Below are positions 15,573-19,743 of a stretch of DNA of 22,580 nt, piece after piece. The stretch is from a virus. The stretch spans positions 1 through 22,580 of IMG/VR virus record IMGVR_UViG_3300046535_000373, one strand, 5' to 3'. Made by a program: the position numbers and the translations under genes. Within the stretch, counting starts at the first letter, position 1. Every line of letters starts with the position of its first letter. The notes under the pieces are model-generated. The model had not been told where the DNA came from and searched no databases. It was given only the letters and a program-made list of their open reading frames with translations.

Positions 15573-16007
15573 ATGGTATTACGGCTTAAGGGAAAGGTCT
15601 CATGGTTTGGTGGACCCAATGATATGGGAGTCGCGCCAGACGAAGGTCTCGCTTTTATTTACGAAATAGAAATGGCACCACATTTATTTTTACCAACACA
15701 ACCTCCCGGCACATCGGGTCTGGCGAGACGATTAAATCCATACGTGCACTTCATTGCGTGCCGGTGGGACTACGATATTTATCCCAAGGATCAAATAATA
15801 AAAGAGTTGGCAGTTATTCGTGCCGTCAAGACGCAGGTCGTGCTGACAGCTTTCCCGGCTGATTGGGGACCGCATTCAGATACAGATAGGGTTGCGGATA
15901 TCAGTGAAGGCTTGATGTTCGATTTGGGGATCACGACTGATGATGAAGTAGAGGTTGCGTTAATGAGCGAGCTGCGTCCTGCCGTGATAAAAGGACCGCT
16001 GGTTTGA
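15573..16007 (+). CDS. Small protein with RlpA-like double-psi barrel signature
   Basis: 144 residues from the ATG at 15573, which has GAGG 7 bases upstream; an in-frame extension to 15540 would overlap the previous gene and lacks a better ribosome site. The core reads KGKVSWFGGPNDMGVAPDEGLAF near the N-terminus and FPADWGPHSDTDRVADIS followed by GLMFDLGITTDDEVEV near the C-terminus. The latter has the same layout as RlpA-type double-psi beta-barrels (D-R-G-P-F...R-x-I-D-L-S...LG...G...V), a fold used by lytic transglycosylases and expansins. No signal peptide is visible. The barrel assignment is inference from motif layout; similar short proteins occur in other phages and prophages by my recollection, without a proven function. 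Confidence 0.65.
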   Translation: MVLRLKGKVSWFGGPNDMGVAPDEGLAFIYEIEMAPHLFLPTQPPGTSGLARRLNPYVHFIACRWDYDIYPKDQIIKELAVIRAVKTQVVLTAFPADWGPHSDTDRVADISEGLMFDLGITTDDEVEVALMSELRPAVIKGPLV

Positions 16008-17482: not shown

Positions 17483-18082
17483 TTAGGCCGCTATTAGTTT
17501 TTGATCCCAAGCGGATTTATATTTCCGCTTGCGATTGCGCATCGCGAGATACGCTCCACCGATTGCACTGGCAAAACCCCAGATCGCTCCAGGGATCGGA
17601 GTCTCAGCAAACGTGCTGAGGTTTCCGCCGTAGCCAGCATCGACACCCGCGTTGCCGGTGATCAGCAAATAATAGCTGCCACCGGAGAGTACCGCTGAAC
17701 CGCCAAACACTTGACAGTTCGGGATACCAATGCATGCCGCTGCTAGTTCAGGACCGAGTACAACGAAGTCGTCACCACCACCGGGTACGCCGTTGGGTCC
17801 GTCATTCACTACCGCGCCTTGAAAGTTGGTAATGAATTGCGGGTCGCCAGACGCAAACGTGTTGGTAGCGAACGCAATGGTCAGGACCTGCGCACCGACA
17901 AGATCGAACGTGTAGATGTCGGCAAACAATCCTGAACCGCCTCCACCAGTACCGGGATTGGTATTGGCAAAGGCTCCGGCTCCAGACGTGGGGTTAGTCC
18001 CCAAGCTGGAAACGGTATCGGCCATCGCAACCGCCGACATGGCGAGTACGGTAGCCGCAGCAAGCAGTAGTTTCTTCATCAA
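17483..18082 (-). CDS. Secreted PEP-CTERM-like protein (FxDxF-like repeat sandwich)
   Basis: 199 residues; the start has AAGGAG 6 bases upstream, with two adjacent ATGs. Signal peptide MMKKLLLAAATVLAMSAVAMA, cleavage probably after residue 21. The mature part has GLFADIYTFDLVGAQVLTIAF and a later GGSYYLLITGNA strand, the layout of a small beta-sandwich as in FxDxF-type PEP-CTERM proteins. One Cys pair (AACIGIPNCQ). The C-terminus has a Pro-Ile-Pro-Gly motif (162-165), a hydrophobic helix (166-182) with W168, and a basic cluster (183-190), matching the three-part PEP-CTERM sorting signal that exosortases cut. Unusually, nine residues follow the basic cluster. It probably ends up on the host surface or outside the cell if the host has an exosortase. 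Confidence 0.75.
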   Translation of the reverse strand: MMKKLLLAAATVLAMSAVAMADTVSSLGTNPTSGAGAFANTNPGTGGGGSGLFADIYTFDLVGAQVLTIAFATNTFASGDPQFITNFQGAVVNDGPNGVPGGGDDFVVLGPELAAACIGIPNCQVFGGSAVLSGGSYYLLITGNAGVDAGYGGNLSTFAETPIPGAIWGFASAIGGAYLAMRNRKRKYKSAWDQKLIAA

Positions 18083-18103
18083 ACACTCCTTGCAAGGTTG
18101 CCT

Positions 18104-18766
18104 CTAGGCCGCAACGATCGCTGCAGCCTTCTTACGCCTACGCAGCAGCAACGCGCCACCGCCTAGAGCGCTACCAAACAGCCATACGGCTGCTGGAAGC
18201 GGTGTCTCACCCGGTGGAGAGCTGAACGGTGTCCCGTTCGGTCCAAGCGGAATAGTTTCAGAAACAAGACTGAAGTTATTCTGATTACCGGCCCAGTCGA
18301 TCTTGAACGCGGGGTCCCACGCGAGGAAATTTCCCGAAGCCAAGTTCAACGTGAAGTCGATGTCGATAACTGTACCGGAAGCAAGTGCAGGTGTACCAGC
18401 GACACCAGTATTTCCGAAACAGAAGAACCCACCACCATTGCTGCAGCCACCGGAATTCAATCCAGTACTTTGAAAGGTCGCACCAACAAGCGTGGTGCTG
18501 CCTGACGAAATAGTGGGAAGGTTCGGTGTACTAAAAGCAAAGGCGTTGATGCCGCTGCGTCCAAGTCTCGTGTCGGTACCAACAACATTGATGCCGGTGA
18601 TTTCAACTTGGAACGTAGCGGACGTCGAGTTAAGAGCGCCACCAATAATTGAGAAATTATAAGTGAGCCCTTCGGTTGCAAGGTCCGGTCCAAGCGTCGC
18701 AGCTTGTGTCGTCCCTATCCCCACTGACAGCGAAAGTGCTGCCAGCATTACAACAAGTTTCTTCAT
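18104..18766 (-). CDS. Secreted PEP-CTERM-like protein (PLPA type)
   Basis: 220 residues; the start has AGGAG 6 bases upstream. Signal peptide MKKLVVMLAALSLSVGIGTTQA. The mature domain is beta-rich, with TYNFSIIGGALNSTSATFQ, VEITGIN and FTLNLASGNFLAWDPAFKIDW, and a Cys pair (GGCSNGGGFFCFG). The C-terminus reads ETPLPAAVWLFGSALGGGA, then LLLRRRKK: a Pro-Leu-Pro-Ala motif at 189-192, a membrane helix, and a basic cluster at 209-213. That is very close to the common PLPAA-W-LFGSGL PEP-CTERM variant of environmental proteobacteria. It lies 21 bases upstream of the second secreted protein with its own strong ribosome site, so the two are a pair. They are not close sequence relatives outside the two targeting signals. 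Confidence 0.8.
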   Translation of the reverse strand: MKKLVVMLAALSLSVGIGTTQAATLGPDLATEGLTYNFSIIGGALNSTSATFQVEITGINVVGTDTRLGRSGINAFAFSTPNLPTISSGSTTLVGATFQSTGLNSGGCSNGGGFFCFGNTGVAGTPALASGTVIDIDFTLNLASGNFLAWDPAFKIDWAGNQNNFSLVSETIPLGPNGTPFSSPPGETPLPAAVWLFGSALGGGALLLRRRKKAAAIVAA

Positions 18767-18785
18767 TAGTTCTCCTAGGATGAAG

Positions 18786-18798
18786 GTAATTTAATTAC
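18786..18798. promoter_or_regulatory. 13-base palindrome upstream of the PEP-CTERM-like gene pair
   Basis: GTAATT-T-AATTAC is a perfect inverted repeat around one central base. It overlaps the stop codon of the upstream gene and lies about 20 bases before the start of the first PEP-CTERM-like gene. It could be an operator, but AT-rich palindromes of this size arise by chance and no promoter boxes are evident. Confidence 0.25.
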
Positions 18799-19382
18799 GG
18801 CTTACCCTCGTTCTCCGTTGCCACAGTGAAGGAGATGCGTTGCCGCCACGGAATAAACGGTGGCGGCTCCACATCAAAGTCAAAAATTTCTGGCCAACCT
18901 GTCATGGGTTGTGGCCGCAGCATCGCGTCGTCGGTGCCACCTCCATGCATGAGTGAAGGGTACGCGATCGATGGATTACCTTCTGGTATGTCGATCGACG
19001 GCGCGTGCGGCTCCGGTGCAGGTTGCGGTGCAGCTGGATGCCGTATTGCACTGCGTGAAGATTGATTGTCCCAGCAGTGACCGGCACCATGCCAATAAAG
19101 CCAAGAGCGTGGATACTTGGCTGCAGCTTGTACTTTTGTCATGCACGCGTGGTCAACGTCTGCACCGAATGCAATATCGATTGCCAGCCACACCCCGATG
19201 ATTGTTACTAACGCAACAAGTATGCCAACGATTATCCACGTCAGGCGATCGCGTCCCATCGGATAATTCCCCTCTTGGTAGCAGATGCAATCCTTCGGCC
19301 ATGTCCCGCGCAAGTGTGTCGGGCACGGCGTTCCAGGTGGCAGTCCCATGCACGGTCTGCGGATCACGTCAGGAGGCTCCAT
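18795..19382 (-). CDS. Membrane protein with CWD-type motif, unknown function
   Basis: 195 residues. The N-terminal 42 residues carry four cysteines (PCMGLPPGTPC and CIC), then MGRDRLTW and one hydrophobic helix (about residues 48-70, WIIVGILVALVTIIGVWLAI). The following stretch has KVQAAAKYPRSWLYWHGAGH, then CWD, a motif I have seen in small membrane proteins of alphaproteobacterial phages. The rest is Pro-rich and probably unstructured. The start at 19382 overlaps the upstream gene by 14 bases; an alternative start at the internal MGRDR (19256) has GAGGGGAA before it and would drop the Cys-rich segment. Immediately precedes the two secreted proteins. Confidence 0.6.
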   Translation of the reverse strand: MEPPDVIRRPCMGLPPGTPCPTHLRGTWPKDCICYQEGNYPMGRDRLTWIIVGILVALVTIIGVWLAIDIAFGADVDHACMTKVQAAAKYPRSWLYWHGAGHCWDNQSSRSAIRHPAAPQPAPEPHAPSIDIPEGNPSIAYPSLMHGGGTDDAMLRPQPMTGWPEIFDFDVEPPPFIPWRQRISFTVATENEGKP

Positions 19383-19743
19383 CGGCTGGCTCGGTGATCG
19401 CGTTGCGGATGACCAGCACGATGTTCGTCAGTGTCGTTTCCAACGCAGCCGTACGCGTCACCGCTTCGTCACGTTGCGCCATGTGCGTGTTGACGCGGTT
19501 TTCCATTTCCAGTTTGGTCGAGAGGTACGTACTCTCCATCATGTTGACGACGCCTTTGAGCGCGTCCAGCTGCACCGTCAACGCCTCGATCTTCATGCGA
19601 GCATCACGCAATTCATATTCAAGCTTATCGCGTTCAGCAAGAACTTGCTGATACGTTGCAAGTCCGGCCTCGACTGCCTTCTGCCGATGTTCTGGCAAGG
19701 TCTCGCCTCCATTATTTTTTGGCGTACGTACTGCGGTATTCAT
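19369..19743 (-). CDS. Coiled-coil protein, unknown function
   Basis: 124 residues; GGAGGGG lies just upstream of the ATG, which overlaps the previous stop (TAATG). Residues 25-105 are highly helical with heptad spacing of Leu/Met/Ala (VLAERDKLEYELRDARMKIE, then ALTVQLDALKGVVNMMEST), so a long coiled-coil is predicted. A hydrophobic C-terminal stretch (LTNIVLVIRNAI) might be amphipathic. No family recognised. Similar short coiled-coil proteins are frequent in phage operons. Confidence 0.65.
   Translation of the reverse strand: MNTAVRTPKNNGGETLPEHRQKAVEAGLATYQQVLAERDKLEYELRDARMKIEALTVQLDALKGVVNMMESTYLSTKLEMENRVNTHMAQRDEAVTRTAALETTLTNIVLVIRNAITEPADGAS

Follow-up and report, generated by a model that had tools for sequence, protein, structure and literature searches.

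A pair of genes for predicted secreted proteins

The window analyzed here, a stretch of 22,580 bases, is an entire IMG/VR record. On its minus strand lie two neighboring genes, A and B, and it was confirmed that both ORFs encode the layout originally predicted for them: a signal peptide as judged by inspection, a Pro-x-Pro motif, a helix, and a basic cluster. Gene A (18104..18766) encodes a predicted secreted PEP-CTERM-type protein of 220 amino acid residues, which starts with MKKLVVMLAALSLSVGIGTTQA and ends with ETPLPAAVWLFGSALGGGALLLRRRKKAAAIVAA. Gene B (17483..18079) encodes a predicted secreted FxDxF-like PEP-CTERM-type protein of 198 residues, from MKKLLLAAATVLAMSAVAMA to ETPIPGAIWGFASAIGGAYLAMRNRKRKYKSAWDQKLIAA. 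The two genes are separated by 24 bp, and each has a good ribosome site ahead of it, AGGAG for A (18772..18776) and AAGGAG for B (18086..18091), as had been claimed. The ATG codon at 18079 is preceded by AAGGAG and is a better start for B than the TTG codon at 18082.

By inspection, the signal peptide of A is MKKLVVMLAALSLSVGIGTTQAA (18698..18766), with a basic n-region, a hydrophobic core, and an AxA-type site conserved among relatives. That of B, also assigned by inspection, is MKKLLLAAATVLAMSAVAMA (18020..18079), and its AMA|D-type site is kept among relatives. The putative sorting tail of A (18107..18208) consists of ETPLPAAVWLFG, a helix, RRRKK, and AAAIVAA. The tail of B (17486..17605), recognized from the sequence and by a layout filter, begins with ETPIPGAIWGFAS and continues to RNRKRK and then to an extension, SAWDQKLIAA. 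In both tails the basic cluster follows the helix, which is the orientation required by the positive-inside rule.

HMM searches supported the PEP-CTERM assignment. In a six-frame search, the tail of A passed the cut-off of the PEP-CTERM model TIGR02595 (16.8 bits against 16, E 4.7e-4, at 18128-18196). In a whole-protein hmmscan of A, TIGR02595 was unlisted, and the sole match was a sub-threshold one to TIGR03370 (16.4 bits against a cut-off of 25.35). Protein B matched the FxDxF PEP-CTERM model NF038126 with 27.9 bits and an E value of 2.4e-6 in a whole-protein hmmscan, below the cut-off of 50. A B homologue encoded by the second gene of another phage locus (L188) scored 51.6 bits and passed it. 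TIGR02595 does not match window protein B, which has the PEP-CTERM layout; B relatives from G005 and G014 do pass that model. TIGR02595 for the A tail and the E value of B indicate more than a chance resemblance; the cut-offs of TIGR03370 for A and of NF038126 for B were not reached. AlphaFold modeling gave a mean pLDDT of 33 for A and 40 for B and was uninformative on the fold. A PDB sequence search gave weak pilin and hydrolase matches only for A (E 0.19-0.6) and no relative of B.

It is known that PEP-CTERM proteins have fewer basic residues, are enriched in Thr, Ser, and Asn, and have very low Cys (PMC1569441). The low-basic, Thr/Ser/Asn-rich composition was found in both A and B. Lys plus Arg make up 1.8% of the secreted body of A and 0% of that of B, against a proteome mean of 11.6% in a related phage genome, G006, and the A body has 12.2% Thr, 10.4% Ser, and 8.5% Asn. 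Both bodies are also rich in Gly, an enrichment outside the published description (PMC1569441), and their Cys content of 1.2-1.5% is above it.

Phage context and recurrence

Is the segment phage DNA? Mu-like baseplate, tape measure, and tail fiber genes are present in the window. G006 (51,561 bases) shares 98.6% identity with it over 22.3 kb and encodes a terminase large subunit, PolA (a family A DNA polymerase), a primase, a UvrD helicase, and a thymidylate synthase; no integrase was found in G006. Because this near-identical relative looks like a complete phage genome, the window is phage DNA, and the phage operon context claimed for the pair was upheld. A and B are located close to the 3′ end of an operon of non-structural genes, which converges on the structural block. 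Scans for promoters and terminators gave match numbers at chance level. Pattern matches to a sigma-54 site were slightly above the expected number, and none was convincingly upstream of A.

Upstream of A, on the same strand, lies c4 (18795..19382), a conserved partner gene for a membrane or secreted protein with a Cys-rich N-terminus and the motifs WLYWH..HCWDN and FIPW..R. It is found within about 180 bp of the PEP pair in many carriers and has no match in Pfam, PHROG, or INPHARED. The next gene, c5 (19369..19743, minus strand), is a conserved upstream neighbor with a coiled-coil look (by eye); matches to it lie less than 6 kb from the PEP genes in many carrier records. It has no PHROG match and gave one weak LmuB match in PADLOC, which returned no defense match to A, B, or c4. 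The convergent neighbor c2 (15573..16007, plus strand) has the motif WFGGP..ADWGPH..DLS and, by eye, a double-psi barrel look, and in G013, G014, and G015 (e.g., L149:6019-6966) the same domain forms a fusion with an amidase endolysin. The order c5-c4-A-B is kept in many carriers, with the c2/c7 block convergent and 0.7-2.8 kb off.

Searches of viral databases found relatives of both A and B in IMG/VR. Pattern scans of IMG/VR with the tails yielded 30 and 52 stretches, some contigs being common to both, and an ORF scan of these stretches found a signal peptide and a tail almost throughout. In at least 26 IMG/VR records, some of them close relatives, two PEP-type genes are found at a short distance from each other, frequently preceded by the same two genes. 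Among the carriers there are at least three unrelated terminases, with those of Pseudomonas PAJU2 (58%), Rhizobium RHph_I3_18 (63%), and Phage C72C1 (48%) as their nearest named relatives. With this recurrence across unrelated terminases, the pair is not a stray insertion. A relaxed layout filter was applied to 1,055 genes from 27 phage records, and apart from the PEP-type genes it let only two through. TIGR03370 was passed by both proteins of G011, both of G017, and one of G021. Two carriers have other genes of note: G011 has a PAPS reductase-type gene with DUF3440 (L112:3734-5017), and G022 encodes a DNA polymerase III alpha subunit (L122:18141-20000).

PEP-CTERM genes are normally chromosomal (PMC1569441), and the locus might be bacterial DNA misassembled into, or mistaken for, a phage. 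Many phage lineages and independent contigs show the same arrangement, and G006 is a complete-looking phage genome, which leaves this explanation with a negligible probability. The chromosomal insertion that would have spoken against the original prediction was not found; the segment is phage, and the pair recurs in other phages.

A tblastn search of the 50,697 isolate phage records in INPHARED gave no match to A, B, c2, or c4; queries with the short tails also found none, in a search where low-complexity filtering may hide matches. The A body was absent from 399 sampled bacterial genomes and the B body from 369. These counts bear on whether A and B are morons, that is, genes that once belonged to a bacterial matrix system, benefit the cell during infection or lysogeny, and have no direct role in infection. 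The relationship of B to the bacterial FxDxF PEP-CTERM family would fit such host-benefit cargo, as would an integrase in the carrier G017 and an integrase-like gene in the carrier L243. However, an integrase passes the cut-off in only one of the 27 phage records, the bodies are missing from the sampled bacteria (0/399 and 0/369), and the operon position is fixed across unrelated phages. Thus, I consider cargo of this kind rather improbable.

Conserved bodies and exchanged tails

The bodies of the proteins are strongly conserved. In diverged phage pairs, dN/dS was 0.013-0.05 for the A body and 0.03-0.14 for the B body. The A bodies of G000 and G004 differ by 69 synonymous and 5 nonsynonymous changes, and across phage pairs with up to 69 synonymous changes in the A body there are no more than 8 nonsynonymous ones. 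The A body is thus under extreme purifying selection, and genes of this kind are functional in the phage and are not cargo in decay. Variation is greater in signal peptides and tails than in bodies; in A, constraint is strongest on the body and weakest on the tail.

Two tail classes were distinguished, PLPAAVWLFG.. (the first class) and PGPIVGAGLPG.. (class-G). Relatives of B in L241-L243, with 46-48% identity, end in the other tail, VP[GA]PI.GAG.PG..RRRR. A motif scan found the class-G tail, PGP[IV]xGAG[LI]PG..RRRR, on secreted phage proteins in at least 120 IMG/VR stretches, and it is commoner than the first class. I examined 80 of these loci (L271-L350): a C-terminal tail with a helix and a basic cluster was present in all 80, a recognizable signal peptide in 69, homologues of other genes of the first phage set in 58, and two genes side by side in 7. 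The class-G tail had no NCBIfam model match in the ten proteins scanned, and its full motif was not found in 399 Pseudomonadota genomes.

When 127 distinct bodies were clustered, six families were found to hold both tail classes, with cross-class matches to E 4e-103; the B family has 14 members of one class and 6 of the other. Conversely, idiosyncratic first-class tails, e.g., SALAAFGLVTH..KSAWDI and RGAWDDLPRVDFLPK, are shared by different bodies. Bodies and tails therefore recombine, and the tails are exchangeable. For tails on non-homologous bodies, nucleotide identity was computed from gapped alignments some 100 bases long, and no conclusion was drawn from it. The freedom and class switching of the tail suggest that it adapts to the sorting enzyme, and the conservation of the body says that the body does the work. 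Quite possibly, phages of exosortase-bearing bacteria draw on a common, recombining pool of surface proteins, in which selection preserves the bodies and the tails are swapped to suit the exosortase of each host; the sorting enzyme would then be a determinant of host range, and the virus would shape the surface of the cell it infects.

An Ala-Trp extension after the basic cluster was found in 15 of 61 distinct phage tails, including the C-terminus of B (17486-17515), and in none of 115 bacterial tails. Since the bacterial sample may lack the host clade, this extension could mark a host lineage rather than phage. The extension also enters into a rival reading of A and B as decoys: they would flood the host exosortase, leaving host matrix proteins unsorted, so that flocs or biofilm loosen and progeny spread. 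Two or more substrates per phage, tails resembling those of the host, and the distinctive cytoplasmic extensions are consistent with this idea, as is the need of Zoogloea flocs for PEP-CTERM proteins together with exopolysaccharide (PMC9012009). A pure decoy would need no strongly conserved body, yet in A it is the body that is held most tightly and the tail that varies most freely, and a decoy role is accordingly unlikely.

A putative substrate of the host exosortase

No exosortase (PF09721) was found in the 27 phage records, extending to them the absence noted in the window. Tails of the same type were traced in bacteria, where 28 of 30 genomes with such a tail have an exosortase, against 48 of 143 sampled Gammaproteobacteria (Fisher p ~7e-10); the test compares a mixed set of Gammaproteobacteria and Nitrospira with a Gammaproteobacteria-only baseline. 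These two results agree with the claim that the phage proteins depend on an exosortase of the host. In the one bacterial instance of the class-G tail that was found (L406:1297-2554), MPGPIAGAGLP is the tail of a small secreted protein, whose gene lies directly beside an exosortase-like gene. The latter scored 16.3 bits against TIGR04178, whose cut-off is 23, and has Cys, NxxR, and HxxxG motifs by inspection. As a link between the class-G tail and an exosortase or archaeosortase, this gene pair is suggestive only.

A signal peptide and a C-terminal helix would also suit lysis-associated, spanin-like membrane proteins in which the helix merely resembles a sorting tail, and lysis-type genes are near, usually on the opposite strand. 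Against this, the tails are matched by curated PEP-CTERM models, the PxP-WLF motif is kept though the bodies differ, the same tail tracks exosortase in bacteria, and A and B have no lysis family match. I regard a lysis function as very unlikely.

Sorting of A and B is a well-supported prediction from their sequences, and the infected cell probably exports and anchors the viral proteins with its own machinery. A and B would be translated from the phage operon, which is separate from the structural block, and leave the cytoplasm by the Sec route, after which the C-terminal helix would hold them in the inner membrane with the basic cluster inside. A host EpsH-type exosortase would recognize the Pro-x-Pro site and then cut them; processing by the host enzyme is very likely. 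The cut proteins would be passed to the cell surface or the exopolymer layer, and a surface or matrix location is likely. There they would most likely alter the surface of the infected cell, e.g., by masking receptors against superinfection or by changing the matrix. A surface or matrix change is a natural effect to expect because PEP-CTERM proteins of Zoogloea hold exopolysaccharide in flocs, both being needed for flocs (PMC9012009). As to the benefit, superinfection exclusion or surface shielding is the leading single guess, a tentative one. Taken as a whole, the reading of A and B as phage-encoded, Sec-exported substrates of a host exosortase that change the surface of the infected cell is fairly likely.

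Full-text literature searches, which covered few subscription papers, found no description of phage-encoded exosortase substrates and no phage system of the A/B type, in line with the original prediction. Within the searched literature, this would be the first described use of the exosortase sorting pathway by phages. The system appears widespread in IMG/VR and, by the searches run, absent from isolate phage collections. The natural swaps of bodies and tails offer a handle on what exosortase substrates do and how the enzyme tells them apart, and the system could explain phage-driven change in flocs and biofilms of environmental bacteria.

Among known systems, A and B resemble PEP-CTERM/EpsH sorting (TIGR02595, PF09721; PMC1569441) in the signal peptide assigned by inspection, PxP motif, helix, basic cluster, and low-basic, Thr/Ser/Asn-rich bodies. 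They differ from it in that the genes reside in phages without an exosortase and that the phage tails are often prolonged by an additional C-terminal extension. The typical, though not defining, setting of bacterial PEP-CTERM genes is a single-gene operon with a large upstream gap and a sigma-54 site; A and B belong instead to a multi-gene phage operon. B, the second gene of the phage pair, and its relatives match the FxDxF family (NF038126) over most of the body. A shares the motif of VPLPA-CTERM (TIGR03370), itself falling under the cut-off, unlike its relatives in G011, G017, and G021. Several phage relatives match the flocculation-associated PepA of Zoogloea (NF033554) weakly, mostly in the tail, and all far below the cut-off; PepA serves as a guide to the function of such proteins and not as a homologue. 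Among superinfection exclusion proteins of the envelope is Spackle of phage T4 (PMC7677548). A likeness to it would lie in the strategy, that of an early phage product with its action outside the cytoplasm. Spackle is not known to carry a sorting tail. The components of the A/B system are known; I am aware of no previous account of them combined as a recombining module in phages.
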